From Clostridiales bacterium (GTDB lineage Bacteria; Bacillota; Clostridia; Christensenellales; UBA1242), in assembly GCA_015055535.1 (NCBI GenBank), contig SVIA01000008.1, positions 1 through 53,756 of the forward strand: 53,756 bases of DNA, written 5' to 3'. Shown here piece after piece: positions 1 to 46,566 of this stretch. The notes under the pieces are model-generated. The model made no database searches and was not told the origin of the DNA. It worked only from the letters and a program-made list of their open reading frames with translations. Made by a program: the position numbers and the translations under genes. Every line of letters begins with the position of its first letter. The first letter of the stretch is position 1.

Positions 1-192
1 GCTGTTCCAAAGATTAAGGTTAGTAAAGCAAGGCGTAATTCCAGAAAAGCAAACTGGAAAGTTTCAACACCTTCTGTTGTAAAATGCCCACATTGTCACG
101 AATATACATTACCACATCAAGCTTGTTCTAAATGTGGTTACTATAAAGGTGAACAAATTATTGATACAACAAAAAAAGTTAAAGAAAATTAA
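1..192 (+). CDS. rpmF: 50S ribosomal protein L32, 5' truncated by window edge
   Basis: Open frame from base 1: AVPKIKVSKARRNSRKANWK...CPHCHEYTLPHQACSKCGYYKG; zinc-type L32 motifs; followed by plsX. Confidence 0.95.
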   Translation, partial: AVPKIKVSKARRNSRKANWKVSTPSVVKCPHCHEYTLPHQACSKCGYYKGEQIIDTTKKVKEN

Positions 193-310
193 TTTTTGAG
201 AAATATTAAAACTATGGCTAAAGCTGTAGTTTTTTTATTTATATATAAATTTATTTTTTTATGTTTGACAAATAACAAAAAAATTGTTTATAATTTATCG
301 AGGAGATTTT

Positions 311-1321
311 ATGATAAAAATTTTATTTGATACTCTAGGAAGTGATAAGGGTTATAAACAAGTTGTGTTAGCCGGGGTTAATTCGGTTAATGAATATAAA
401 GATTTAGAAATAACATTAGTTGGAAATGAACAAGATATTTTAGAAGAATTAAAAAATTATAAATATAATGCTGAACAAATTAAAGTTATTCATGCACCAA
501 CAGAAATTTCTTGTAATGATACTCCAACTAAAGCTATTAGAGAAAAAACTGATAGTAGTTTAGTTGTGGGGTTAAATACTTTAAAAGAAGGCTATGATGC
601 ATTAATTTCTGGCGGAAGTACAGGTGCAGTTTTAACAGGTGGATTTTTAAAGGTGGGAAGAATTAAGGGAATATCTCGTCCGGCACTTTGTCCTATGCTT
701 CCAACTTTAAATGGTGGAAGAGTAATGTTAATAGACTGTGGTGCAAACGTAGATTGTAAACCAATTAATTTATGCCATTTTGCTTTAATGGGTAAAATTT
801 ATATGGAAGAAGTTATGGGTATAAAAAACCCAAGAATAGCTTTATTAAATAATGGCGTAGAAGAACACAAGGGTAATGATCTAGCAAAAACTACATATCC
901 GCTTTTAAAAGAAATGCCTATTAATTTTGTTGGTAATTTTGAAGCAAGAGAATTTTTGAGCGGCGATGCTGATGTTTTTGTATGTGATGGTTTTGCTGGG
1001 AATGTTTTATTAAAAGGAACAGAAGGCGCAATTCAAGTTGTAATGAAAAAACTTAAACAAGGAGTTAAAAAATCTTTCTCAGCTAAAATTGGCGCGCTAT
1101 TTATGAGAAAAGTGTTTAAGAGCTTAAAGAAAGAATTTAATATTGAAGGTCAAGGTGGTTCAATTTTACTTGGCTTAAAACATATATTAATAAAAGTGCA
1201 TGGTTCTAGTTCACATCTATCTTTTGAATCTGCTGTAAAACAAGCAATGCAATTAATAGAAAATAAGGTAGTAGAAAAACTAGAAAATGAATTTTCTAAA
1301 TTAAATGTGGAAGAAGATTAA
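311..1321 (+). CDS. plsX: Phosphate acyltransferase PlsX
   Basis: MIKILFDTLGSDKG...ISGGSTGAVLTGG...; start moved to ATG 311 downstream of AGGAGA at 301 (the track ORF starts at an upstream TTG). Confidence 0.95.
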   Translation: MIKILFDTLGSDKGYKQVVLAGVNSVNEYKDLEITLVGNEQDILEELKNYKYNAEQIKVIHAPTEISCNDTPTKAIREKTDSSLVVGLNTLKEGYDALISGGSTGAVLTGGFLKVGRIKGISRPALCPMLPTLNGGRVMLIDCGANVDCKPINLCHFALMGKIYMEEVMGIKNPRIALLNNGVEEHKGNDLAKTTYPLLKEMPINFVGNFEAREFLSGDADVFVCDGFAGNVLLKGTEGAIQVVMKKLKQGVKKSFSAKIGALFMRKVFKSLKKEFNIEGQGGSILLGLKHILIKVHGSSSHLSFESAVKQAMQLIENKVVEKLENEFSKLNVEED

Positions 1322-1983
1322 TGAAAAATATAGAAGAAATTATAAATTATAAATTTAATAATATTGAGCTTTTAAATACAGCTACATACCATTCCTCATT
1401 TGCTCATAAATATTCTTTGAAAAATAATGAACGTTTAGAATTTTTAGGAGATAGTGTTTTAGGCTTAATTGTAACAGAATATTTAATTAATGAATATTCG
1501 TTAAAAGAAGGAGAATTAAGTAAACTAAGAGCTAAAATTGTTAGTTGTGAAAATTTAAGTAAAAATATAACCGAAAACAAACTTGATGAGTTTATAAAAG
1601 TTTCTCCCGAATCTTTAATAAAATCTGAAGCTATAAAAGGGGATTTTTTTGAAGCGCTTTTAGGAGCGTTATATCTAGACGGCGGAGTGAGTATTTGTAA
1701 GAGTTTTGTTTACAAGTTTTTAATTAAAAACAAAGATAATATTGATAATTTAATGAATGAAACTTTAGATTACAAAACAAAACTACAAGAATTGGTTCAA
1801 GCAAAAAAAGGAAAGGTAAACTATTATACTACTGATGAAATTGGACTTGATAATGATAAAACTTTTGAAGTAAAACTTTATATAAACGATAAGTTTGCAA
1901 CAAAAGCAAAAGGTAAAACAAAACAAAAAGCTGAAAATTTATGTGCTAAAATTGCGTGCGAAAATTTAAGTAAATTTATTTGA
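1321..1983 (+). CDS. rnc: Ribonuclease III
   Basis: NERLEFLGDSVLGLIV signature plus C-terminal dsRBD-like region. Confidence 0.95.
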   Translation: MKNIEEIINYKFNNIELLNTATYHSSFAHKYSLKNNERLEFLGDSVLGLIVTEYLINEYSLKEGELSKLRAKIVSCENLSKNITENKLDEFIKVSPESLIKSEAIKGDFFEALLGALYLDGGVSICKSFVYKFLIKNKDNIDNLMNETLDYKTKLQELVQAKKGKVNYYTTDEIGLDNDKTFEVKLYINDKFATKAKGKTKQKAENLCAKIACENLSKFI

Positions 1984-2008
1984 CATATAAATATATTATT
2001 AGTATAAT
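1980..2008 (+). promoter_or_regulatory. Sigma-A-like promoter for hpf (TTGACA-17-TATAAT), overlapping the rnc stop codon
   Basis: TTGACA 1980-1985, 17-nt spacer, TATAAT 2003-2008. Confidence 0.75.
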
Positions 2009-2040
2009 TATAATACAATTAAATATAAGGAGGTTCTATT

Positions 2041-2343
2041 ATGAGAGTAGAATTTACAAACGACATTAAGTCTGAAGCGCTAGAAGGTTTATGTGTTAAA
2101 AAACTAAACAAGCTAGAAAAATTTTTTAAAGGAGGAGAACCTACCGTATATGTTACATTTTCAATAGAAAATCGTGAACATAGTGTATCACTTTTAACAA
2201 ACTACAATTCTTTTGAATTAAAAGCAAAAGGCAAAAGTGATGATATGTATAAAAGTATAGATATTGCTGTTGAAAATTTAAAACAACAAATTACTAAAAA
2301 TAAATTTGATAAAAAAGAAAAAAGAGCAGTTAAAGAATTTTAA
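2041..2343 (+). CDS. hpf: Short HPF/RaiA-type ribosome hibernation factor
   Basis: 100 aa, RaiA/HPF-like fold pattern (KLNKLEKFF, VYVTFSIENREHSVSL, DDMYKSIDIAVENLKQQI); no C-terminal dimerisation domain. Confidence 0.8.
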   Translation: MRVEFTNDIKSEALEGLCVKKLNKLEKFFKGGEPTVYVTFSIENREHSVSLLTNYNSFELKAKGKSDDMYKSIDIAVENLKQQITKNKFDKKEKRAVKEF

Positions 2344-2348
2344 TAATT

Positions 2349-2376
2349 AAAAGCACAGCAATGTGCTTTTTTGTTT
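2349..2376 (+). terminator. Intrinsic terminator after hpf
   Basis: AAAAGCACA-gcaa-TGTGCTTTT followed by T-tract. Confidence 0.85.
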
Positions 2377-2447
2377 TTTAAATTTTTAAAATTAATGCTT
2401 GAAATATTATTGCGTTTATGTTATCATATAAACATAGGGGACTAAAT

Positions 2448-2990
2448 ATGAAAAACAAAAAATTTTATTTTGGTAAAGATGAACTTGCATATAATATTAA
2501 AAAAATAATGAAAAATAAAATTTTAAGCAATGAGAAGAAGTGCGATAAAATGATTGCTGAATATAACAAATATTTTGCTAAAGAATTTATTAATGACGTT
2601 AAATTTCAAAATGCTGAATTAAATTATGAACTTTATATGAAAAAAACAGGTAAAGATGAATATAGTTACAAAACATGTTTTAGATATGAATTTGAAAATA
2701 TGGTATTTTACAATTTGTTTGAAATGTGTTTAAGATTAAATAAGTTATTTGAAAAAGGTCTAGACGTGAATAAAGTAGCTGAAGCAAATAAACCTTTTGT
2801 AAATGATGTTATGGCTTTGTATAACGAACATTTTAGTGATAAGAATTTTGATGGTGGATATTTTTATATGGATAAAGATTTTAGAAATAATTTAAAATCA
2901 GATTTAAATGACATTGTATCAAAATATTATAAAGAAGCTTATAGTCATTATGAAGATAGAAGTACAGAACCATTCCCAGAATTTAATTAA
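2448..2990 (+). CDS. Hypothetical protein
   Basis: Internal ATG 2448 preceded by AGGGG; MKNKKFYFGKDELAYNIKKIMKN...; no family recognised. Confidence 0.65.
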   Translation: MKNKKFYFGKDELAYNIKKIMKNKILSNEKKCDKMIAEYNKYFAKEFINDVKFQNAELNYELYMKKTGKDEYSYKTCFRYEFENMVFYNLFEMCLRLNKLFEKGLDVNKVAEANKPFVNDVMALYNEHFSDKNFDGGYFYMDKDFRNNLKSDLNDIVSKYYKEAYSHYEDRSTEPFPEFN

Positions 2991-3039
2991 CCATTAATAA
3001 TGGAATACTTTAAAAGAGAATATTAAAATAAAATAATTG

Positions 3040-3082
3040 AGAACTTGTTTTAAAATTTTTGAAATAAGTTCTTATTTTTTTG
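3040..3082 (+). terminator. Probable intrinsic terminator
   Basis: AGAACTT ... AAGTTCT then T-rich run. Confidence 0.6.
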
Positions 3083-3152
3083 TTATAAAATTAGGTAAAA
3101 AATGGCATAAAAAATGGGATAAAAAAAATATAAAAATATTTTAAAAAAAGTG

Positions 3153-3181
3153 TTGACAATGTTTGCAAATTGTAGTAATAT
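3153..3181 (+). promoter_or_regulatory. S10-operon promoter
   Basis: TTGACA 3153-3158, 17-nt spacer, TAATAT 3176-3181. Confidence 0.85.
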
Positions 3182-3187
3182 ATCTAT

Positions 3188-3380
3188 GCTGTGTAATTTA
3201 GGGATGACAATTAAGGTTACTACGTGCCTAGCCTTTAGGTAGCGACGAGAGAACTTAATTCAACCTAGTTTAGAAAAGAAACTAAACGTTTAATTCAAGC
3301 ATTTTTTTAAGTTAAAACTTATGAAACACACGGCAATATGTTAATGCTTTGAATTAATTTAAAAAGGAGATAAAAAACAA
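3188..3380 (+). promoter_or_regulatory. About 190-nt structured 5' leader of the S10 operon
   Basis: Hairpin around 3223-3249, TAGTTT/AAACTA hairpin, and two copies of TTAATTCAA that can each pair with TTGAATTAA immediately upstream of the rpsJ SD. Confidence 0.55.
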
Positions 3381-3689
3381 ATGGCAACACAAAAAATTAG
3401 AATTAAATTAAAATCTTATGACCATAGCTTAATCGATCAAGTTGCATTAAGAATTGTAGATGTTGCAAACAAAAATGGTTGTAAAATCAGTGGACCTATT
3501 CCACTACCAACTGACAGAGAAGTGGTAACAGTTATTCGTTCACCACACAAACACAAAGATTCTCGTGAACAGTTTGAAACAAGAACACACAAAAGGGTTA
3601 TTGATATTTTAAGCCCATCAGCTAAAACAATCAACGCTTTCATGAAGTTAGATTTACCAGCTGGCGTAGATATCAATATTAAAGTATAG
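3381..3689 (+). CDS. rpsJ: 30S ribosomal protein S10
   Basis: [15 protein letters not shown]... canonical S10. Confidence 0.98.
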
Positions 3690-3706
3690 GAGAAAAGGAG
3701 AGTAAT

Positions 3707-4342
3707 ATGAAAAACGAAATTTTAGGTAAAAAACTTGGAATGACTCAAATTTTCGCAAGCAACGGTTTAGTTGTTCCTGTAACAGTTGTAGAAGCTGGCC
3801 CAGTTAGTATCCTACAAAAAAAGACAGAAGAAAACGATGGATACAAAGCATTAAAAGTAGCGTTTAAAGAAACTAGAGAAAGTTTACTAAACAAAGCTGA
3901 AATGGGTGAATTTAAAAAAGCTAATGTTTCTAGCAAAAAATATGTTAGAGAAATTGAAAGTAAAGATTACGACACATTAAATGTTGGTGATGTAATTAAT
4001 TGTGGAATTTTCGCTGAAGGTGAAAAAGTAGATGTTACTGGTTTCACACGTGGTAGAGGTTTTACAGGTGTTATCCAAAGATGGAATGCACATAGAAATA
4101 GAATGACACACGGTGTATCTCTTGTTCATAGATCAAGTGGTTCAATGGGTGCTAACAGTTTACCAAGCAGAGTTTTCAAAGGTAAAAAACTTGCTGGTCA
4201 ATACGGTAACGAAAAAGTAACAATTCAAAACTTAGAAGTTGTTAAAGTTGATACAGACAGAAACGTACTTTTAATTAAAGGTGCAGTTCCTGGTCCTAAA
4301 GGAGCTATTTTATCAATTAAAACAGCTGTTAAAGGTAAATAA
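3707..4342 (+). CDS. rplC: 50S ribosomal protein L3
   Basis: GKKLGMTQIF..., FTRGRGFTGVIQRW. Confidence 0.98.
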   Translation: MKNEILGKKLGMTQIFASNGLVVPVTVVEAGPVSILQKKTEENDGYKALKVAFKETRESLLNKAEMGEFKKANVSSKKYVREIESKDYDTLNVGDVINCGIFAEGEKVDVTGFTRGRGFTGVIQRWNAHRNRMTHGVSLVHRSSGSMGANSLPSRVFKGKKLAGQYGNEKVTIQNLEVVKVDTDRNVLLIKGAVPGPKGAILSIKTAVKGK

Positions 4343-4353
4343 AGGAGTCGATT

Positions 4354-4971
4354 ATGCAAGTTAAAGTTTATAATATAAATGCTGAAGAATGCGGTAAAGT
4401 AACTTTAAGTGATGAAGTATTTAAAACACCTTATAACGAAGCTTTAATACATGAAGTTATAGTTGCTTATCTAGCAAATCAACGCCAAGGTACAAAAAGT
4501 ACTTTAACTAGAACAGAAGTTAGAGGTCATGCTAAAAAACCTTGGGCACAAAAACATACAGGTCATGCAAGACAAGGTTCTACTAAAGGTCCACAATGGA
4601 CAGGCGGTGGAGTTGTGTTTGCACCAAAACCAAGAGATTTTTCTAAAAAAGTTAATGCAAAAGCTAAAAAAGTTGCTTTCAAAAGTGCATTAAGCAAAAA
4701 ATTAGAACAAAATGAAATTACAGTTTTAGATAATATTAGCATCGAAGCTAAAACTAAAGCTATGCAAAACGTTTTAAATAATTTTAAAATGGATAAAAGC
4801 ACTGTATTAGTAATAGATGGCGCTAATGAAAATGTTTTAAGAGCAGCAAATAACATTCCAACACTTTCTGTTGTTGAAGTTAGCTTATTAAACACATATG
4901 AAGTAGTTGCAAATAAAAATGTTATTATAACTGAAAGTGCTATTAAAAAATTAGAGGAGGCTTGTAAATAA
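4354..4971 (+). CDS. rplD: 50S ribosomal protein L4
   Basis: RQGTKSTLTRTEVRGHAKKPWAQKHTGHARQGS. Confidence 0.98.
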   Translation: MQVKVYNINAEECGKVTLSDEVFKTPYNEALIHEVIVAYLANQRQGTKSTLTRTEVRGHAKKPWAQKHTGHARQGSTKGPQWTGGGVVFAPKPRDFSKKVNAKAKKVAFKSALSKKLEQNEITVLDNISIEAKTKAMQNVLNNFKMDKSTVLVIDGANENVLRAANNIPTLSVVEVSLLNTYEVVANKNVIITESAIKKLEEACK

Positions 4972-5261
4972 TGAAACAATATGATGTTATTATTAAACCT
5001 CTATTAACAGAAAAAAGTTATAGTGATGTTGCAAACAAAAAATATGCTTTTATTGTTAAGAGAGATTCTAACAAAGCTGAAATCAAAAAAGCAGTAGAAG
5101 ATATTTTCGGTGTTAAAGTAGAAAAAGTTAACACTTTAAATTATGATGGAAAATTCAAAGTTCAAGGTAGAGCTCAAGGTTATACTTCAAAATTCAAAAA
5201 AGCTTATGTTACTTTATGTAAAGACAGTAAATCTATTGAGTTTTTTGATAGCTTGAGTTAA
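4971..5261 (+). CDS. rplW: 50S ribosomal protein L23
   Basis: IIKPLLTEKSYSDVANKKYAFIV. Confidence 0.97.
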   Translation: MKQYDVIIKPLLTEKSYSDVANKKYAFIVKRDSNKAEIKKAVEDIFGVKVEKVNTLNYDGKFKVQGRAQGYTSKFKKAYVTLCKDSKSIEFFDSLS

Positions 5262-5280
5262 TTAGGAGGATAAATAAATT

Positions 5281-6108
5281 ATGGCAATTAAAACATATAA
5301 TCCAGTAACTCCATCATTAAGAGCAATGACTACTTCTGACTATTCAGAACTTTCTAAAAAAGCTCCAGAAAAAAGCTTATTAGCTAAAAAGAAAAAAACT
5401 GGTGGTAGAAACTCTTATGGTAGAATAACAGTTCGTCACATTGGTGGTGGAAACAAAGTTAAATACAGAGTTATAGATTTCAAAAGAAATAAAGATGATA
5501 TTCCTGCAAAAGTTGCAAGTATTGAATATGATCCAAACCGTTCAGCATACATTGCTTTATTAAATTATGTAGACGGAGAAAAAAGATATATTTTAGCACC
5601 TAACGGTTTAAATGTTGGTGATGTTGTAACAAGTGGCCCAAATAGCGAAATAAAAGTTGGTAACTGTTTACCACTTGAAAATATTCCAGTAGGTATCGTT
5701 GTTCATAATATTGAACTACAACCTAAAAAAGGTGGCGCAATTGCTCGTTCTGCTGGTATTGAAGCTAGAATTATGGCTAAAGAAGGAAAATACGCTACAA
5801 TTAAAATGCCTAGTGGCGAAATGAGAAAAGTTCCTTTAGCTTGCCGTGCTACAATTGGTCAAGTTGGTAACTTAGATTATGAACTTGTTAATATTGGTAA
5901 AGCAGGTAAAACAAGACACTTAGGTGTTAAACCTACTGTTCGTGGTGCTGTTATGAACCCAGTTGACCATCCACATGGTGGTGGTGAAGGTAAAAACCCA
6001 GTTGGACATAGTAATCCTAGAACTCCATGGGGTAAACCAGCTATGGGTAACAAAACTAGAAAACATAAAAAATATTCTAACAAACTTATTATTAAGCGTG
6101 TTAATTAG
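5281..6108 (+). CDS. rplB: 50S ribosomal protein L2
   Basis: [13 protein letters not shown]..., [19 protein letters not shown]. Confidence 0.98.
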
Positions 6109-6120
6109 GAGTAAAAAAGT

Positions 6121-6414
6121 ATGAGTAGATCATTAAAGAAAAAACCTTTCGTAGAAGAAAGATTATTAAACAGAATTAAAAAAATGAACGAAGCAAATAC
6201 AAAACAAGTTGTTAAAACTTGGAGTAGAGCTTCTACTATTTACCCAGAATTTGTTGGTCATACTATTGCAGTTCATAATGGTAAAAAACATATTCCAGTA
6301 TATTGTACTGTAGATATGGTTGGTCACAAACTTGGTGAATTCGCTCCAACTAGAACTTTTAAAGGTCATGCGGGCGATAAGAAAACTGCAGCAGGAAAAG
6401 GCGCAAAAAAATAG
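6121..6414 (+). CDS. rpsS: 30S ribosomal protein S19
   Basis: [16 protein letters not shown]..., [16 protein letters not shown]. Confidence 0.98.
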
Positions 6415-6427
6415 GAGGATAATTTAA

Positions 6428-6778
6428 ATGGCAAATGTTAACAATATGGCTAGAGCTACAGCTAAATATGTTAGAATTAGTCCTAGCAAAGTAAATAGAA
6501 TATTAGCTACCATTCGTGGTAAAAAATATGTTGAAGCAGCCGCTATTTTAGAAGCTCTTCCTAATACTGCAAGTATCAGTATTTTAAAAGTTTTAAATAG
6601 CGCAGCTAGTAATGCTGAACATAATATGAATTTAAACAAAGACGATTTATTCGTTGAAACTGCTGTTGCAAACTGTGGCCCAATCATGAAAAGAATGATG
6701 CCAAGAGCAAAAGGCAGAGGAACAAGAATTTTAAAAAGAACAACTCATATAACTGTTATTTTAGGTACAGTTAATTAA
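6428..6778 (+). CDS. rplV: 50S ribosomal protein L22
   Basis: ATAKYVRISPSKVNRI..., MPRAKGRGTRILKRTTHITV. Confidence 0.97.
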   Translation: MANVNNMARATAKYVRISPSKVNRILATIRGKKYVEAAAILEALPNTASISILKVLNSAASNAEHNMNLNKDDLFVETAVANCGPIMKRMMPRAKGRGTRILKRTTHITVILGTVN

Positions 6779-6794
6779 TTAAAAGGAGAATTGT

Positions 6795-7460
6795 ATGGGA
6801 CAAAAAGTTAGTCCAATTGGATTAAGATTAAAAGTTAATAAAACTTGGGATTCTCAATGGTTTGGTAATAAAAAAGATATTGCTAAAAATATTTTAGAAG
6901 ATAGCAAAATTAGAGAAACCCTAATGAAAAATTATAATCAATGCAGTATTTCTAAAATTTTAATAGAACGTTCTCAAACAAGACTAACTGTTACTATTTT
7001 AACAGGTAGACCTGGTATGCTTATCGGGGTTAAAGGTGCTGGAGTTGAAGCTATTAAAAAAGAAATTGCTAAAATTAGCAGTTGTAACAATATTACAGTT
7101 AACATCAGAGAAGTTAAAAAAGTTGATACTGATGCTACTATTGTTGCAGATTCTATTGCAAAACAACTAGAAAAACGTGTTTCTTGGAGAAGATGTATGA
7201 AACAAGCTATCCAAAAAGCAATGAAAGCTGGTGCTGAAGGTATTAAAGTTATGGTTAGCGGTAGATTAGATGGCGCTGAAATTGCTAGAAGCGAATTCGA
7301 ACATGAAGGTAGCCTTCCATTACACACTATCAGAGCTGATATCGATTATGGAACTTGCGAAGCTCACACAACTTTTGGCGTTATTGGCGTTAAAGTTTGG
7401 ATTTTCAAAGGTGAAGTTTTAGGTAAAAGACCTTCTAACATAAATAAGGAGGAAAACTAA
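6795..7460 (+). CDS. rpsC: 30S ribosomal protein S3
   Basis: [12 protein letters not shown]..., KH-domain [15 protein letters not shown]. Confidence 0.98.
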
Positions 7461-7461
7461 T

Positions 7462-7905
7462 ATGTTGATGCCTAAAAGAGTTAAAAGAAGATTACAACAC
7501 AGAGGTAGAATGACTGGTAAAGCATTAAGAGGTAACACTATTTCTTATGGTGACTTTGCTTTAGTTGCTCAAGAACCTTGCTGGATTACTTCAAATCAAA
7601 TTGAAGCAGCCCGTGTTGCAATGACTAGATTTACAAAAAGAGGTGGAAAAGTTTGGATTAAAATTTTCCCTCACAAACCAGTTACTAAAAAACCTGCTGC
7701 AACAAGAATGGGTAGCGGTAAAGGTAGCGTAGAATACTGGGTAGCTGTTGTTAAACCAGGTAGAGTTTTATTTGAAATTGGTGGAATCGCTGAAGAAACT
7801 GCTAGAGAAGCTCTAAGACTTGCTTCACACAAACTTCCTTGTAAAGTTAAAATTATAAAGAAAGAAGAAGTAACAACAGACGCTAACAAAGGTGGTGAAG
7901 AATAA
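7462..7905 (+). CDS. rplP: 50S ribosomal protein L16
   Basis: [21 protein letters not shown]. Confidence 0.98.
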
Positions 7906-8117
7906 TGAAAACTAAAAATTTTAGAGAAATGACTACTGAAGAATTAAATTCTAAACTAAAAGATTTAAAAGTGGAATTATTTAATTTACGTTTTTCTCAC
8001 GCTACTGGTCAATTAGCTAATCCAATGAGTTTAAACACTATCAAAAAAGATATTGCTAAAGTAAAAACTATTATTAAAGAAAGAGAACTTAACAAATCTG
8101 TTAAGGGTTCTAATTAA
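7905..8117 (+). CDS. rpmC: 50S ribosomal protein L29
   Basis: REMTTEELNSKLKDLKVELFNLRF. Confidence 0.97.
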   Translation: MKTKNFREMTTEELNSKLKDLKVELFNLRFSHATGQLANPMSLNTIKKDIAKVKTIIKERELNKSVKGSN

Positions 8118-8127
8118 GGAGTGAGTT

Positions 8128-8391
8128 ATGGAAAATTTAGAAAGAAATGACCGTAGAAAAAGAATTGGTATTGTTGTTTCTAACAAAATGGATAAAACTA
8201 TTGTTGTTGAAGTACAAAGCCAAGTTAAACATCCACTATATAAAAAATTCGTAAAAAAGACTAAAAAATATAAAGCTCATGATGAACAAAATTCTTGTGG
8301 AATTGGTGATACAGTTGAAATTATGGAAACTAGACCACTAAGCAAAGATAAATACCACAGAGTAGTAAGAATCGTTGAAAGGGCTAAATAG
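8128..8391 (+). CDS. rpsQ: 30S ribosomal protein S17
   Basis: [33 protein letters not shown]. Confidence 0.97.
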
Positions 8392-8399
8392 GAGGAGTT

Positions 8400-8768
8400 A
8401 TGATACAACCACAAACAAGATTGAAAGTTGCCGATAATACTGGCGCAAAAGAAATTATGTGTATTCGTGTACTTGGCGGTTCTTTTAGAAGAAGTGGTAA
8501 CATTGGTGATGTTATCGTAGCTTCTGTTAAAACTGCTATTCCTGGTGGAGTAGTTAAAAAAGGTGATGTTGTTAAAGCTGTTATCGTAAGAAGTGCTAAA
8601 GGTTTAAGAAGACCAGATGGCTCTCATATTAAATTTGATGATAATGCTGCTGTTATTATTGATAATAACAAAGAACCTAAAGGAACACGTATATTTGGAC
8701 CTGTTGCAAGAGAATTAAGAGAAAAAAATTATATGAAAATAGTTTCACTTGCACCAGAGGTTTTATAG
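8400..8768 (+). CDS. rplN: 50S ribosomal protein L14
   Basis: [27 protein letters not shown]. Confidence 0.98.
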
Positions 8769-8780
8769 GAGGAAGTTAAA

Positions 8781-9212
8781 ATGAATAGTTTAAGCGTTAA
8801 AAAAGGCGATACAGTTGTTGTTTTAGCCGGAAAAGATAAAGGCAAAACTGGTAGCGTTTTAGCAGTTTCTCCTAAAACAAACAGAGTTATCGTTTCTAAT
8901 GTTAACATTGTTAAAAAACATAAAAAAGCAAGAAATACTCAACAAAAAAGTGAAATCGTTTCTATGGAAGCACCTATCAATGCATCTAATGTTATGGTAA
9001 TGTGTGCTGCTTGTAATGATGCAACTAGAATTGCTAAAAAAGAAGTTGATGGCAAAATGGTTAGAGTATGTAAAAAATGTGGAGCTATTTTAGAAGCTAA
9101 TAAAAAAGCAGCTAAAAAAGCAACTAAAGAATCGAAAAAAGAAGTAGCTAGTGAAAAAACAACTAAAACTAAAAAAACTACAACTAAAAAAGCTACTGCA
9201 GATAAAGAGTAA
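8781..9212 (+). CDS. rplX: 50S ribosomal protein L24 with Zn-ribbon-like Cys pairs and a Lys-rich C-terminal tail
   Basis: KKGDTVVVLAGKDKGKTGSVL; C-x2-C ... C-x2-C; about 40-aa KKAAKKATKESKKE... extension. Confidence 0.95.
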   Translation: MNSLSVKKGDTVVVLAGKDKGKTGSVLAVSPKTNRVIVSNVNIVKKHKKARNTQQKSEIVSMEAPINASNVMVMCAACNDATRIAKKEVDGKMVRVCKKCGAILEANKKAAKKATKESKKEVASEKTTKTKKTTTKKATADKE

Positions 9213-9226
9213 GGAGGAAATAAAAA

Positions 9227-9766
9227 ATGAATAGATTACAAGAACACTATAAAAATAATGTTATTCCTGCTCTAAAAGAAGAACTAGGTTATAAAAATAT
9301 TAATGAAGTTCCAAAAATTGAAAAAATTGTAATTAACACTTGTCTTGGCGATGTTAAAGATAATTCTAAAAGCTTTAACTTGGCTGTTGATGAAATTCAA
9401 GCTATTACTGGTCAAAAACCTGTAATTGTTAATGCAAAAAAATCAATTGCTAACTTCAAACTTCGTGAAGGAATGAAACTTGGTGCTAAAGTTACTTTAA
9501 GAGGCGAAAAAATGTATGAATTTTTAGATAAATTATTATCAATCGCTTTACCTAGAGTTAGAGATTTTAAAGGTATCAATGAAAAAGCTTTCGACGGAAG
9601 AGGTAATTATAGTTTAGGTATTAAAGAACAATTAATTTTCCCAGAAATTCAATATGATAAAATTGAGAAAGTTAGAGGTTTCGATATTGTAGTAGTTACT
9701 ACAGCAAAATCTAATGAAGAAGCTAAAGCATTATTAAAACATGTTGGCTTCCCATTTAGAGCGTAA
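9227..9766 (+). CDS. rplE: 50S ribosomal protein L5
   Basis: L5 pattern, IPRVRDFKG-like and [12 protein letters not shown] motifs. Confidence 0.98.
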
Positions 9767-9776
9767 GGAGTAAATT

Positions 9777-9962
9777 ATGGCAAAGAAAAGTTTAAAAGTT
9801 AAACAAGCTAGAAAACAAAAATTTTCAACACGTGAATACACTCGTTGCACAATCTGCGGTAGACCACATTCAGTACTAAAAAAATATGGTATTTGTAGGG
9901 TTTGCTTTAGAGAAATGGCAAATAGAGGAGAAATTCCAGGTGTTGTAAAATCAAGCTGGTAA
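9777..9962 (+). CDS. rpsZ: 30S ribosomal protein S14 type Z
   Basis: 61 aa, [23 protein letters not shown] zinc motif. Confidence 0.97.
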
Positions 9963-9975
9963 AAGGAGAGTATGT

Positions 9976-10371
9976 ATGAAATTTGATCCAATCGCAGATA
10001 TGCTTACAAGAATTCGTAATGCTATTACTGCAAAAAAAGAAGATGTTGTTATACCATCATCTAAATTAAAAATGTCTATTGCTAACATTTTACTAGCTGA
10101 AGGTTATATCAGCCAAGTTGAAGAAACTAGCGAAGGCGTTAAAAAGAATATTAAAGTTACTTTAAAATATGGCCCTAATGGCGAAAAAGTTATTCAAGGC
10201 ATAAAAAGAATTTCTAAACCAGGTTTAAGAATTTTCTCTAATGCTGAAGATTTACCTAAAGTTATAAATGGTTTAGGTATTGCTATTATTTCTACTAACA
10301 AAGGAGTTATGACAGATAAACAAGCTAGAAGCCAAAATCTTGGTGGCGAAGTACTTGCTTATGTGTGGTAA
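9976..10371 (+). CDS. rpsH: 30S ribosomal protein S8
   Basis: [13 protein letters not shown]..., S8 C-terminus GGEVLAYVW. Confidence 0.98.
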
Positions 10372-10385
10372 GAAAGGAGAAAGAT

Positions 10386-10931
10386 ATGTCAAGAATTGGA
10401 AAAATGCCTGTTAAGATTTTAGATGGCGTAAGTGTTAATATTGATAGTAACAATTTAGTTACTGTAAATGGCCCACTTGGTACTCTATCTCAAATCGTAG
10501 ATAAAAATATTAAAGTAACTGTAGAAAACAATGAAGTAATTTTAACTAGAAATAGTGAAGCAAAAGAAATTAAAGCAAAACACGGTCTTTATAGAGCTTT
10601 AATCTTTAATATGGTTAAAGGTGTTAAAGAAGGCTTTAAAAAAGTACTTGTTATTAATGGTGTTGGTTATAGAGCAACTAAACAAGGAAATAAATTAGTG
10701 TTAAATATTGGTTATTCTAAACCTGCTGAAGTTGTTGAAGTTGAAGGTATTAAATTAAATGCACTAGATGCTAACAGAGTTGAAGTAAGTGGAATAAACA
10801 AAGAATTAGTTGGCCAAGTGGCTTCTAAAATTAGAGATATAAAACCAGTAGAACCTTATCATGCTTACGGAATTAGATATGAAAACGAAGAAGTAATCCG
10901 TAAAGAAGGTAAAAAAGCTGGTAAAAAATAA
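10386..10931 (+). CDS. rplF: 50S ribosomal protein L6
   Basis: MSRIGKMPVKI; start moved to internal ATG 10386. Confidence 0.97.
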   Translation: MSRIGKMPVKILDGVSVNIDSNNLVTVNGPLGTLSQIVDKNIKVTVENNEVILTRNSEAKEIKAKHGLYRALIFNMVKGVKEGFKKVLVINGVGYRATKQGNKLVLNIGYSKPAEVVEVEGIKLNALDANRVEVSGINKELVGQVASKIRDIKPVEPYHAYGIRYENEEVIRKEGKKAGKK

Positions 10932-10943
10932 GGAGCATAAGTT

Positions 10944-11312
10944 ATGATTAAGAAAATTGATAAAAATAGCATAAGAGTTAATCGTCATAAAAAAATTAGA
11001 TTAAACTTAGCTGGTACAAGTGAACGTCCTAGACTATGCGTTTATAGAAGTAGCTCAAATATTTATGCTCAAATTATAGACGACACTAAAGGCATCACTT
11101 TAGTAAGTGCATCAAGCTTAGAAAAAGCATTAGCAGATAGCATTAAAGGAAAAACTAAAACTGAAGTTGCTACTGTTATTGGTGAAACTATTGCTAAAAG
11201 AGCATTAGACGCTAATATTAAAACTGTAGTATTTGACAGAGCTGGTTATCTTTACACTGGAAGAGTTAAAGCTATAGCAGATGCAGCTAGAAGTGCTGGC
11301 TTAGAGTTTTAG
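10944..11312 (+). CDS. rplR: 50S ribosomal protein L18
   Basis: [23 protein letters not shown]. Confidence 0.98.
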
Positions 11313-11323
11313 GAGGAAGTAAA

Positions 11324-11833
11324 ATGGCTAAAAGAGAAGAATTTAATAAAGTTAGAAAAGAAGATGAACTAGAAAGAAGACTAGTAAGTGTTCGTAGAGT
11401 TGTTAAAGTTGTTAAAGGCGGTAGAACTCTAAACTTTAGTGCTACAATGGTAGTAGGCGACAAAAAAGGTCGTGTTGGTATCGGAAGTGGTAAAGCTAGT
11501 CAAACTTCTGTTGCTGTTGAAAAAGCTTTTCAATCAGCAAAAAAGAATATGCAATATGTTAATATTGTAGGTTCAACTATTCCTCATGAAGTTGAAGGAA
11601 AATTTGCAACTTCTACTATTTTATTATTACCTGCTAAAGAAGGTACTGGTGTTATCGCCGGTGGTGCAGTTCGTGCTGTAATCGACCTTGCTGGTATTAA
11701 AGATATTGTTACAAAATCTTATGGTGGAAGAAATAAAATCAATACAGTTAAAGCAACTTTAAATGGTTTAACTAGTTTGAGAACAAGAGAACAAGTAGCT
11801 GCTCTTCGTGGTTTAAAACCAGAAGAAGTTTAA
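11324..11833 (+). CDS. rpsE: 30S ribosomal protein S5
   Basis: VRRVVKVVKGGRTLNFSATMVVGDKKGRVGIG. Confidence 0.98.
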   Translation: MAKREEFNKVRKEDELERRLVSVRRVVKVVKGGRTLNFSATMVVGDKKGRVGIGSGKASQTSVAVEKAFQSAKKNMQYVNIVGSTIPHEVEGKFATSTILLLPAKEGTGVIAGGAVRAVIDLAGIKDIVTKSYGGRNKINTVKATLNGLTSLRTREQVAALRGLKPEEV

Positions 11834-11845
11834 TAGGAGGGTAAC

Positions 11846-12028
11846 ATGGAAGGAAAATTAAAAGTAACTTACGTAAAAAGCTCAATTGGTTTTAATAAAA
11901 ATCAAGTAAAAGTTTTAGAAAGTTTAGGTTTAAGAAAATTAAATGATGAAAATGTTTTACCTGACAACCCTGCTGTTAATGGTATGATTTTCAAAGTTAA
12001 ACATTTAGTTAAAGTAGAGAAAATTTAA
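11846..12028 (+). CDS. rpmD: 50S ribosomal protein L30
   Basis: 60 aa, [25 protein letters not shown]. Confidence 0.96.
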
Positions 12029-12041
12029 GGAGAAGAAGAAT

Positions 12042-12485
12042 ATGAGAATTAACGAATTATCTCCTGCTGAAAATTCAAAAGTAGCATCTAAAAGATTAGG
12101 TCGCGGTATTGGTTCAGGACTTGGTAAAACAAGTGGTAAAGGACATAAAGGTCAAAACGCTAGAAGCGGTGGCGGAGTTCGTCCAGGCTTTGAAGGTGGC
12201 CAAATGCCTATTACTCGTAGACTTCCACAAAGAGGTTTTAACAATCAATTTAAAAAAGTATTTTCAGTAGTTAATGTTGAAGATTTAAATAGACTAGAAG
12301 ATAACACAGTAGTAACTGTTGAAGTTTTAAAACAAATGAATATCATTTCTAAAATTGAACCAGCTGGTTTAAAAGTTTTAGGATGTGGTAATTTATCAAA
12401 AGCTTTACAAGTTAAAGCTGCAAAATTTTCTAAGTCTGCTGTAGAAAAAATTGAAAAAGCAGGCGGAAGTGTTGAGGTGTTATAA
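12042..12485 (+). CDS. rplO: 50S ribosomal protein L15
   Basis: [22 protein letters not shown]. Confidence 0.98.
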
Positions 12486-13780
12486 TGTTTACAACATTAG
12501 TAAATGCATTCAAAGATAAAGGTATTCGTAAAAAAATCTTTATTACTTTGGGTTTATTGTTTATTTTTAGATTAGGATGTTGGTTACCTATTCCAGGTAT
12601 TACAACAGAAACTTTTAGGGCATCAATTAAGAGCCAAGACTTTTTAAGTTTACTTAATGGTATTGGTGGTGGTGCTCTTGCCAATGGAACATTTTTTGCG
12701 CTAGGTGTTACACCTTATATTAATGCATCAATTATTTTACAATTGTTAACTTTTGCTATACCAAAACTTCAAAGATTATCTCAAATGGGCGAAGAAGGTA
12801 GAAAGAAAATTGCAAAATATACAAAATATGCTGCATTATTTTTAGCAATTGCTCAAGCAGTTGGTATTTGTGTTGGATTTAGTAGTTCTATAGAATTAAG
12901 TTTATTTGGAACAACTCTTCCAACTTGGCTTGCTTGTACTTTTGTTGCAATTTGTTTAATTGCTGGAGCTATGCTTACTTATTGGTTAGGTGAAAAAATC
13001 ACTGAAATCGGTGTAGCTAATGGTTTATCTATTTTAATTTTTGTTGGTATTTTATCAACTGCTGGAACAGCAATATTAGCTAGTTTCAAAGATGTATTTG
13101 CAGGTAATATTGATGGACTATGGAATATTTTATTATTCTTTGGTGCTGCAATTGTTATATTTGGATTAATTGTATTTATGGACCTTGCCGAAAGAAAAGT
13201 TCAAGTACAATATGCAAAACAAATAAAAGGCAGAAAAATGTATGGTGGTCAAAGTAACTTTATTCCTATTCGTTTAATGGGAACTGGTGTACTTCCAATT
13301 ATTTTTGCAATGAGCTTTTTAAGCTTGCCACAATTAATTATGAGTATGTTTTGGCCAACAAGTAAAGCAGCAACTTGGTATGCAATGAACTTGGGAGCTG
13401 GAACATGGCCTTATACTTTAGTTATGGGCATATTAATTTTATTATTTGCTTTCTTTACATCTCAAATGATGTTTAATCCTGAAGATGTTGCAAAACAAAT
13501 TCAATCTAATGGTGGATTTATTTTAGGTATTCGTCCAGGTAAACCAACTGCAGATTATTTAAAAAGAATTAATAATAGAATTACTTTATTTGGTGCTATA
13601 TTCTTAGCATTTATAGCAATTGTTCCAACATTAATATTCACTTTTGTTGGTGGAAGTAGTTCACTAATAAATGCATTTAGTGCTACAGGTATGCTAATCG
13701 TAGTTTCAGTTGCGTTAGAATTTAATAAACAACTTGAGGCACAAATATTAACAACAAATTATAAAGGATTTCTTAAATAA
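12485..13780 (+). CDS. secY: Protein translocase subunit SecY
   Basis: Polytopic; LGVTPYINASIILQLL, ERKVQVQYAKQIKGRKMYGGQSNFIPIRL. Confidence 0.98.
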   Translation: MFTTLVNAFKDKGIRKKIFITLGLLFIFRLGCWLPIPGITTETFRASIKSQDFLSLLNGIGGGALANGTFFALGVTPYINASIILQLLTFAIPKLQRLSQMGEEGRKKIAKYTKYAALFLAIAQAVGICVGFSSSIELSLFGTTLPTWLACTFVAICLIAGAMLTYWLGEKITEIGVANGLSILIFVGILSTAGTAILASFKDVFAGNIDGLWNILLFFGAAIVIFGLIVFMDLAERKVQVQYAKQIKGRKMYGGQSNFIPIRLMGTGVLPIIFAMSFLSLPQLIMSMFWPTSKAATWYAMNLGAGTWPYTLVMGILILLFAFFTSQMMFNPEDVAKQIQSNGGFILGIRPGKPTADYLKRINNRITLFGAIFLAFIAIVPTLIFTFVGGSSSLINAFSATGMLIVVSVALEFNKQLEAQILTTNYKGFLK

Positions 13781-44726: not shown

Positions 44727-44779
44727 CAAAAATAAAAAAGTCCCGTTAGTCACTGCATTTTGAAACTAGTGTAATAATT

Positions 44780-44814
44780 AGAGAATTAGAATTAAACTTC
44801 TAGTTCTCTTTTTT
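44780..44814 (+). terminator. Intrinsic terminator downstream of pnp
   Basis: AGAGAATTAGAA-ttaaac-TTCTAGTTCTCT (one G.U) then TTTTTT. Confidence 0.8.
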
Positions 44815-44838
44815 AAAGGCTACTTTATGCCGTGAAAG

Positions 44839-44976
44839 GTACTTGACAAGAGAAGAAATGAAAACACAATTTCAAAAGGCAGAGAAACACAAAAGGCGAA
44901 GCCATAAGCACAATTATTGTTTCTCTGTCTTAACCAGCAAAAAAGAAAACTCATTTCAGAGCCTCTTGTCAAGTAC
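44839..44976. repeat. Nested long inverted repeat (candidate MITE or structured RNA)
   Basis: Outer GTACTTGACAAGAG/CTCTTGTCAAGTAC (14/14), next GAAATGA/TCATTTC, inner AGGCAGAGAAACA/TGTTTCTCTGTCT, core GGC-GAA-GCC. Confidence 0.8.
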
Positions 44977-45010
44977 ACCATGGAATAAATTAGGCATTAC
45001 ATATAACAGC

Positions 45011-45053
45011 AAAAAGCGAAAGTGTGTTACGTTCACCAACACTTTCGCTTTTT
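45011..45053. repeat. Perfect 15-bp hairpin, possible bidirectional terminator
   Basis: AAAAAGCGAAAGTGT-13 nt-ACACTTTCGCTTTTT. Confidence 0.9.
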
Positions 45054-45075
45054 GTCTGCTTTAATTTAGTTTATT

Positions 45076-45134
45076 GATGTGTGCTTGTCTGTTCGAGCGA
45101 AGCGAGAACACTTGTATCAAGACAAGCACACGTC
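45076..45134. repeat. Inverted repeat with an internal GCGAAGC mini-hairpin
   Basis: GATGTGTGCTTGTCT/AGACAAGCACACGTC enclosing GTTCGAGCGAAGCGAGAAC. Confidence 0.9.
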
Positions 45135-45225
45135 TAAATACCATTATCAAAAATTATTGCTAATTATACTTGCTATTTTTTTGAAATTAATTAATTATAA
45201 ATTATTATCTTCCAATTCTTAAATT

Positions 45226-45432
45226 TTAAAACTCGAATAATTCGTTTGGAGTAATATCTAAAAATTTGCAAATTTCATATAATTGTTGATAATTTAATTC
45301 GAAGACACCATTTTCAAAACGACTATATTGTTGTTGTGTCATGCGAAAAACCTTGGCGACTTGTTTTTGTGTAAGCCCTTTATCTTTTCTTGCTCTTTTT
45401 ATATTTTCTCCAACTATTTTAGAATAATTCAT
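45226..45432 (-). CDS. XRE-family HTH regulator
   Basis: 68 aa GENIKRARKDKGLTQKQVAKVFRMTQQQYSRFENGVFELNYQQLYEICKFLDITPNELFEF. Confidence 0.93.
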   Translation of the reverse strand: MNYSKIVGENIKRARKDKGLTQKQVAKVFRMTQQQYSRFENGVFELNYQQLYEICKFLDITPNELFEF

Positions 45433-45465
45433 ATGATATTATTACCACAAAGTGATGTAAAAAAC

Positions 45466-45494
45466 TTGACATACATCATTAAATGATGTAAGAT
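45466..45494 (+). promoter_or_regulatory. Promoter with palindromic operator TACATCAT-taa-ATGATGTA in the spacer
   Basis: TTGACA 45466-45471, spacer starts with the palindrome 45472-45490, TAAGAT -10 at 45489-45494; extra half-site TGATGTAA at 45453-45460. Confidence 0.8.
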
Positions 45495-45528
45495 TATGTT
45501 GTAAATCAAATGAAGAAGAGGTTTTAAA

Positions 45529-45882
45529 ATGTATTGGAAAAAAATAAAGTCATTTAAAAAGGATTTTTTGAATTCAACAGAAGCTTATTTCTTTTTTGAA
45601 GAATGGGCAAAAGACAAGGGAGAATTGGCTTGGGTAGAATATGATAAAATTAAAAAAAAATTACCCATATTTCCTAATTTAGATCATGCACAAATGTTTT
45701 TTAGTAAAACATTAAAAAAGAAATATCTTGTTTATCATCCTTATTTTCCAGCAGAAATAATGAAAGAAATATTAAATCAATGGAATTTTGATAACATATA
45801 TAATATTATAATTTATAATCAAAGTTGGTATAACGAAAATACAAGCATGGTTGTTGTTGAGTTTGATGAGGTGAAATTATGA
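45529..45882 (+). CDS. Unknown 117-aa protein of the XRE module
   Basis: Starts after an AGAAGAGG SD-like region; stop overlaps the next start (ATGA). Confidence 0.7.
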   Translation: MYWKKIKSFKKDFLNSTEAYFFFEEWAKDKGELAWVEYDKIKKKLPIFPNLDHAQMFFSKTLKKKYLVYHPYFPAEIMKEILNQWNFDNIYNIIIYNQSWYNENTSMVVVEFDEVKL

Positions 45883-46385
45883 GGAAAATATCACTAATAA
45901 TGTGTAGTTTTTTAATTATTTTTATTAATTTATTTGTTTTTTCTGGCTGTTCAATAAAAGAAAACGAAATTAATTACGTAAGATATACAACTTCTACTGG
46001 TCAAAAGAAAACTCTTTATTCTACTTATGGCTATGAGGTGAAAGAAGTAATTATGAGAAATATTTCAACTAAAGATATATTAGAAAGCAAAAGAGATTCA
46101 GAACTTCCAAAATTATTTTTAAGTGGTGAAATAGTTACATCTTATTCAACTAGCACAATAAGGAATGTATTTGCGTATCTTGACGTTTTTGACTTGAGTT
46201 CTGTTGAGGCAACTTGGATGTATTCAAAAAAATATTCTTGTGAAGTTACTTTAACATTTGAACTAAGAGTAATAGAAGCCAATCCTGTTACGATTAAAAA
46301 CTCTAATGGTTTATCCACAATATATCAAGATGGATATAAAATAATAACGCTTCCTTCTTCTAGCGTTGAAATATATTATTTTTAA
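45879..46385 (+). CDS. Putative lipoprotein, unknown function
   Basis: MRKISLIMCSFLIIFINLFVFSGC lipobox; translationally coupled to the upstream gene. Confidence 0.75.
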   Translation: MRKISLIMCSFLIIFINLFVFSGCSIKENEINYVRYTTSTGQKKTLYSTYGYEVKEVIMRNISTKDILESKRDSELPKLFLSGEIVTSYSTSTIRNVFAYLDVFDLSSVEATWMYSKKYSCEVTLTFELRVIEANPVTIKNSNGLSTIYQDGYKIITLPSSSVEIYYF

Positions 46386-46475
46386 CTCATTTATATTAAT
46401 TAAAAATTAATTTTATTTATAATCTAATCATTTTTATAATTTTGTATTTTGTTTCATACATTTCTTTGATAGTAC

Positions 46476-46511
46476 AAAAAAGCACAACATAATTTATATC
46501 GTGCTTTTTTA
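46476..46511 (+). terminator. Intrinsic terminator
   Basis: AAAAAAGCAC-...-GTGCTTTTTT. Confidence 0.75.
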
Positions 46512-46566
46512 TTATAATACTAGTTTCAAAAAGGACAATCCTTAAGGGGCTTTTTTAATACAAAAA

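Follow-up and report, generated by a model that had tools for sequence, protein, structure and literature searches.

CIMEs carry att sites without integration genes (PMC5704250) and are described as decayed ICE or IME remnants that lie in tandem with other elements. Tn4451/Tn4453-type mobilizable transposons use a serine integrase of low specificity and a 2-bp core (PMC5704250). A clade of multi-targeting large serine recombinases includes Cp36; one integrase has 21 targets with a TT core and A/T-rich ends, DUF4368 occurs in 63% of the multi-targeting clade and the paper mentions neither terminators nor palindromes (PMC10083194). Inverted repeats are also targeted by IS1272, which deletes the target stem-loop (PMC5678879).

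The element described here shares features with each of these systems. Like CIMEs and helper-dependent elements (PMC5704250), it has kept both junctions, has no integration genes and presumably relies on an enzyme supplied in trans. Unlike CIMEs, it belongs to a dispersed, cargo-swapping family that is present in several copies per genome and that retains a probable replication origin. The use of many unrelated targets recalls the multi-targeting serine recombinases, but in contrast to the description of the Cp36 clade, insertion here is into an intrinsic terminator whose loop holds the core, and DUF4368 was not found at E 0.01 in two recombinases associated with the family. Tn4451 and Tn4453 likewise have a shared core of 2 bp and insert at many sites; they encode their own recombinase, whereas the element reported here has neither recombinase nor relaxase. 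IS1272 also uses stem-loops, but it moves by a DDE transposase and removes the target repeat, whereas our family is associated with a serine recombinase and leaves both arms in place. Finally, Inoviridae prophages and their dependent elements have a Rep family (PF23343) and a hairpin, which we call H, in common with this family, although Rep, Zot and coat genes are all missing from the cassette itself. Serine recombinases with many targets are known, as are cis-mobilizable elements, but we did not find terminators reported as the target; a literature search that took in few subscription papers and preprints returned no terminator-targeting serine recombinase and no matching filamentous-phage satellite. 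The cassette probably represents a non-autonomous satellite of a terminator-seeking integrase.

The window, the whole stretch of DNA analysed, comprises 53,756 nucleotides of a Clostridiales genome. An initial annotation had drawn attention to a non-coding patch downstream of pnp (44777–45134) as a dense array of inverted repeats. The repeats were placed correctly, but those coordinates were incomplete, because the patch makes up just one end of a unit that spans 44746–46543: it forms the non-coding head of an integrated cassette of 1,796 bp (44748–46543), which interrupts the intrinsic terminator of pnp within its loop. We estimate a probability of roughly 0.8 that the patch heads a non-autonomous integrative cassette of 1.8 kb, a satellite or a cis-mobilizable element, that was inserted into this terminator by a serine recombinase acting in trans. 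The boundaries are inverted TTTTGAAACTAG half-sites lying 10 bp from a TT core, inside the pnp terminator loop. The features of the locus, with the evidence for each, are as follows.

44734–44745, plus strand: host target half, the A-tract and left stem arm of the pnp terminator (AAAAAAGTCCCG); sequence.
44746–44747, plus strand: left 2-bp crossover core (TT); cores matched in 27/27 elements at this offset.
44748–44769, plus strand: left attachment half-site, AGTCACTGCA-TTTTGAAACTAG; conserved in copies, motif enriched in relatives versus a reversed control.
44780–44814, plus strand: element-borne intrinsic terminator adjoining the left half-site; hairpin and T-run, covarying pairs in alignment A3.
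44818–44996, plus strand: long-range stem with nested hairpin; repeats, fold and alignment.
45010–45054, no strand assigned: perfect 16-bp hairpin (CAAAAAGCGAAAGTGT / ACACTTTCGCTTTTTG); conserved in 18 copies.
45079–45131, plus strand: hairpin H, GTGTGCTTGTC-stem-GAGCGAAGCGA-stem′-bulge CTTGTATCAA-GACAAGCACAC, proposed rolling-circle origin; pairing and Rep neighbours.
45226–45432, minus strand: cargo, XRE/HTH_3 regulator of 68 aa; PF01381, E 1.8e-14.
45529–45882, plus strand: cargo ORF of 117 aa.
45879–46385, plus strand: cargo ORF of 168 aa with a lipoprotein-like N-terminus (by eye).
46475–46510, no strand assigned: element-borne terminator-like hairpin adjoining the right half-site (AAAAAAGCACAACATAATTTATATCGTGCTTTTTT); sequence, by eye.
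46520–46541, minus strand: right attachment half-site, GGATTGTCCT-TTTTGAAACTAG; conserved ends.
46542–46543, plus strand: right 2-bp crossover core (TT); junction comparison.
46544–46556, plus strand: host target half, the loop end, right stem arm and T-tract (AAGGGGCTTTTTT); sequence and rejoining.

The cassette thus keeps both attL and attR; integration and transfer genes are absent, including any recombinase gene with resolvase, recombinase and zinc-ribbon domains.

Identical central dinucleotides flanked by inverted half-sites are the standard signature of large serine recombinases, and this is the pattern found at the junctions. In the element set, TTTTGAAACTAG marks the left boundary and its inverted partner lies 0.8–6.8 kb away. 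Among the 27 elements for which both ends were found, the 2 bp located exactly 10 bp outward from TTTTGAAACTAG are the same at both junctions in every case (TT in 23, AT in 4), whereas all other offsets from 0 to 25 give matching cores in just 0–3 of the 27, and mispaired elements agree at offset 10 in 38% of comparisons. Related lineages (e.g. L120/L146/L155 and L095/L133) enter the count separately, as they differ in insertion site. The rebuilt putative attP, CTAGTTTCAAAA-N10-TT-N10-TTTTGAAACTAG, has inverted half-sites around the core, as in the ~46–50-bp attP sites of large serine recombinases.

The host sequences outside the paired junctions are inverted copies of one another, with an A-tract and stem arm on the left and a stem arm and T-tract on the right, which places each element inside an intrinsic terminator. 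For 24 elements, the observed flank similarity was reached in 0 of 10,000 partner permutations. When the host halves of the 27 elements are rejoined, terminator-like hairpins result with the core in or beside the loop (mean MFE −10.7 versus −3.7 kcal/mol for mispaired halves), although the hairpins are weak at four sites (L120, L137, L146 and L172). In the window, joining 44734–44745 to 46544–46556 restores a terminator hairpin with an MFE of −15.4. The 27 insertions have different flanks, in line with the more than three unrelated target genes expected of the multi-targeting recombinase clade. Plain terminators are often found at the end of pnp in relatives, and in several of these the terminator directly precedes what appears to be the same deacetylase gene that lies farther downstream in the window; plain terminators likewise follow orthologues of other target genes. 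In the empty-site comparison proposed at the outset, relatives have plain pnp terminators, but a search with 2.6 kb of rejoined flanks against 197 genomes yielded no close allele differing solely by the insertion.

Neither a recombinase nor a transposase is encoded by any of the complete cassettes listed. A search for the half-site motif in 14 genomes, in which a reversed control gave far fewer matches, led to a 6.8-kb element (L263; G025, 5068–11899) with the same half-sites and core (AA/TT) as the cassettes, inserted in the terminator of rpsO. This element encodes a large serine recombinase with PF00239, PF07508 and PF13408 domains, an HUH Rep (PF23343) and a separate ORF of 210 aa, carries H and has an AbrB/ABC-transporter cargo; comparison of its Rep with plasmids gave no match. 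Two close recombinases (95% and 81% identical) each have a TTTTGAAACTAG half-site adjoining the gene. As rpsO lies just upstream of pnp, L263 and the window cassette are two independent insertions at the same gene pair in different genomes.

A single serine recombinase was found in the window genome. It is 45% identical to the L263 enzyme and lies beside a diverged Rep and H in a second Rep/serine-recombinase element (L173; G000 C8, 12106–18563), which has additional ORFs past H and whose ends were not located. Given this low identity and the missing ends, the window copy may be stranded in a genome that lacks a recombinase to match it. In the long-range stem (44818–44996), the outer arms match the 3′ flank of this recombinase gene (C8:11948–12101), and other head types match the DNA between the C8 Rep and recombinase. 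The simplest reading of these similarities is that the cassettes would be deletion derivatives in which the intervening genes have gone, while the ends and the intergenic hairpins remain. A tyrosine recombinase (C19:11508–12926) was also considered as the mobilizing enzyme. It is located in a filamentous prophage and adjoins a degenerate half-site, and was dropped because the serine recombinase shares the exact ends.

Taken as a mechanism, these comparisons suggest that a cassette would circularize and re-insert by the action of a large serine recombinase provided in trans by a larger relative. The rebuilt site would act as attP, paired with an attB formed by the dyad of an intrinsic terminator whose loop contains TT (or AT). 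The model predicts a circular junction of CTAGTTTCAAAAAGGACAATCC-TT-AGTCACTGCATTTTGAAACTAG and an empty pnp site of AAAAAAGTCCCG-TT-AAGGGGCTTTTTT. The hairpins of the head would be remnants of the intergenic regions of an autonomous element, left after loss of the rep and recombinase genes. The two terminator-like hairpins of the cassette (44780–44814 and 46475–46510) could replace the split host terminator; the host gene would keep its stop signal because the cassette brings terminators of its own.

The structure of the head is pronounced. The patch folds with an MFE of −114.3, compared with −65.1 ± 4.4 for dinucleotide shuffles (z = −11.2), and none of 100 shuffles folds as well, in agreement with the dense repeat array first described. 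The terminator hairpin noted there corresponds to the terminator-like hairpin at 44780–44814. The nested repeat has perfect outer arms of 14 bp as reported (44839–44852/44963–44976) and inner arms of 14 nt at 93% identity (44876–44889/44918–44931); the hairpin described as a perfect 15 bp is perfect but extends over 16 bp (45010–45025/45039–45054). Arms at 45069–45090/45120–45141 surround the GTTC-GAGCGAAGCGA-GAAC core. GCGAAGC does occur at the two positions noted, but only the copy at 45097–45103 lies in a near-invariant core, whereas that at 44896–44902 is not conserved among copies. The higher GC content (0.355–0.365) is clear relative to the sequence downstream (about 0.22) and only modest relative to the upstream coding DNA (about 0.30).

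The inner stem of hairpin H varies freely with pairing maintained around the near-constant GAGCGAAGCGA: 293 of 329 pairs are Watson–Crick across 59 distinct interiors, with 5 G·T and 2 A·C. A one-sided bulge usually reads CTTGTAT(C)AA, in which CTTGTAT resembles the CTTG^ATA nick site of pC194 and phiX174. Another, longer Rep of about 345 aa (PF23343 at E about 1e-10) has H 104–228 bp downstream of it, in elements that also encode a Zot-like protein (phrog_197, E 1.2e-7) and other filamentous-phage-like genes. When Rep loci were collected by protein search rather than through H, H was nearby at 6/6 close Rep loci, compared with 0/29 pnp loci, and was often absent within reach of more distant Reps. 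These associations point to H being probably a rolling-circle origin recognized by the HUH Rep; the main alternative is a packaging signal. A filamentous-phage-like prophage is present in the window genome (L169; G000 C19, about 150–12926), with H, Rep, a Zot-like ATPase, structural-type proteins, a LexA-like repressor, an HTH excisionase-like ORF and a tyrosine integrase.

The GTCTAAC that follows H resembles an RYYYAAC-type integron attC box, but the real junctions are elsewhere. An integron gene cassette would need a fixed integrase platform and crossover at an attC with GTTRRRY/RYYYAAC boxes; this reading was rejected because the crossovers of the family occur at TTTTGAAACTAG-type junctions in dispersed sites.

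Several other explanations of the patch deserve consideration. That it consists of ordinary tandem terminators or immobile host intergenic repeats is scarcely credible: several of the hairpins are indeed intergenic and end in T-runs, but they belong to bounded units with shared ends whose cargo moves between unrelated sites, the pnp insertion is absent in relatives, and the junction analysis refutes this reading. The foreign, mobile origin initially proposed finds support in the plain pnp terminators of relatives and in copies elsewhere in the genome and in relatives. A MITE was among the options offered, and a transposase-mobilized element (a MITE or IS-like element preferring stem-loops, as IS1272 or a Y1/HUH single-strand transposon) would account for inverted TTTTGAAACTAG arms at both ends and for inverted-repeat targets of the kind reported for IS1272 (PMC5678879). 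We consider it very improbable. IS1272 replaces the stem-loop, whereas both target arms are retained here, which led us to reject an IS1272-like replacement; there is no target duplication beyond the 2-bp core, which matches in 27/27; the arms sit 10 bp inward of the crossover instead of occupying the tip; and no transposase is present in the complete elements listed, whereas the autonomous relative has a serine recombinase. The mechanism implied by MITE is thus the wrong one, and the ICE remnant or single-stranded-DNA-origin-like element proposed alongside it comes closest, in that the patch would be the subterminal head of an integrase-dependent cassette whose last hairpin is common to rolling-circle Rep elements.

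A functional structured RNA read from the plus strand, e.g. in a regulatory or guide role, is unlikely, though the strong fold fits it, as do compensatory changes in 16/107 pairs of the wider head alignment and an excess of plus-strand G·T over A·C pairs (109 versus 32). This excess is consistent with a plus-strand structure and does not separate RNA from single-stranded DNA. The almost purely Watson–Crick inner stem of H, by comparison, gives no clear RNA strand, and the hairpins are mosaic and exchanged between element types. Rfam searches with E up to 1 gave no match above threshold (a sub-threshold mir-268 match was taken as chance), and no tRNA or tmRNA was found in the window. Absence of copies and of covariation had been named as evidence against a mobile or RNA element; covariation was detected, and a search with a 424-bp query found three full-length copies in the same genome.

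The serine-recombinase cassette could also be a natural phagemid, with H replicated by a helper Rep, packaging in helper virions and integration by serine recombinase. This extension of our preferred reading is possible but doubtful. Prophages that encode a Zot-like protein (phrog_197) have the same H next to Rep, and one of them is in the window genome (C19); the cassettes retain an intergenic-like region with cargo in place of genes; however, L263 has neither Zot nor coat genes, H may be common to the prophages through the shared Rep only, and scanning IMG/VR with the H pattern gave 0 matches. More speculatively, gut Clostridia might widely harbour a natural 'phagemid' system in which small cargo cassettes replicate from a filamentous-phage origin hairpin, ride in helper particles and land in terminator loops. 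With a serine recombinase that reads terminator dyads, nearly any intrinsic terminator would be a harmless landing place, and the cassettes would resemble scattered integrons in circulating defence genes.

The integrated cassette, as we prefer to read it, would supply a concrete rule of site choice for a multi-targeting serine integrase, namely a TT (or AT) core placed where an intrinsic terminator forms its loop. This position would offer a natural safe harbour, and integrases directed to it could be useful tools. The family also suggests a little-described route by which small genomes may share restriction systems, transporters and regulators as swappable, integrase-free cassettes linked to the putative replication hairpin of filamentous prophages.

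The distribution of the family was examined in sequences of species-representative genomes and MAGs. The three full-length copies of the query are on C4, C14 (89%) and C6 (84%), and the same genome holds partial copies of the query's two ends; matches occur in 21 of 59 related genomes and chiefly involve the left end or the last hairpin. A degenerate H pattern identifies at least 114 loci in uncultured Clostridia/Christensenella-type genomes. Elements were gathered largely via H, so those lacking it are under-sampled. Comparison of loci reveals identical cargo to the right of H with unrelated DNA to the left, and such elements must therefore have moved. Cargo is interchangeable between H and the right half-site and often consists of phage-defence genes. 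It includes (i) HaeIII-type and other type II restriction–modification systems, an AbiZ-like protein and Mrr and HNH nucleases; (ii) ABC transporters with AbrB regulators, APH plus GNAT and radical SAM proteins and (iii) FtsZ/tubulin-like proteins, metallo-hydrolases and others. The 117- and 168-aa ORFs of the window have no match at any other locus compared.

Single cargoes are joined at H to differing non-coding heads in L070/L092, L053/L061/L137 and L073/L141; heads and cargo are thus exchanged by recombination in or close to H. At L172 (G000:C6, 121–4135) the structured head adjoins a half-site of the opposite type; the orientation of the head relative to the core is therefore not fixed. 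Mini-elements of 72–103 bp (L085, 1411–1514; L105, 105–177; L126, 1045–1119) consist of two inverted TTTTGAAACTAG half-sites around a terminator hairpin alone and are possibly minimal derivatives. One recurrent cassette (L120, L146, L155 and L264) encodes a short FtsZ/tubulin-family GTPase together with a partner protein and a small HTH-like protein; L120, L146 and L155 have an AT core, and L264 has a TT core.
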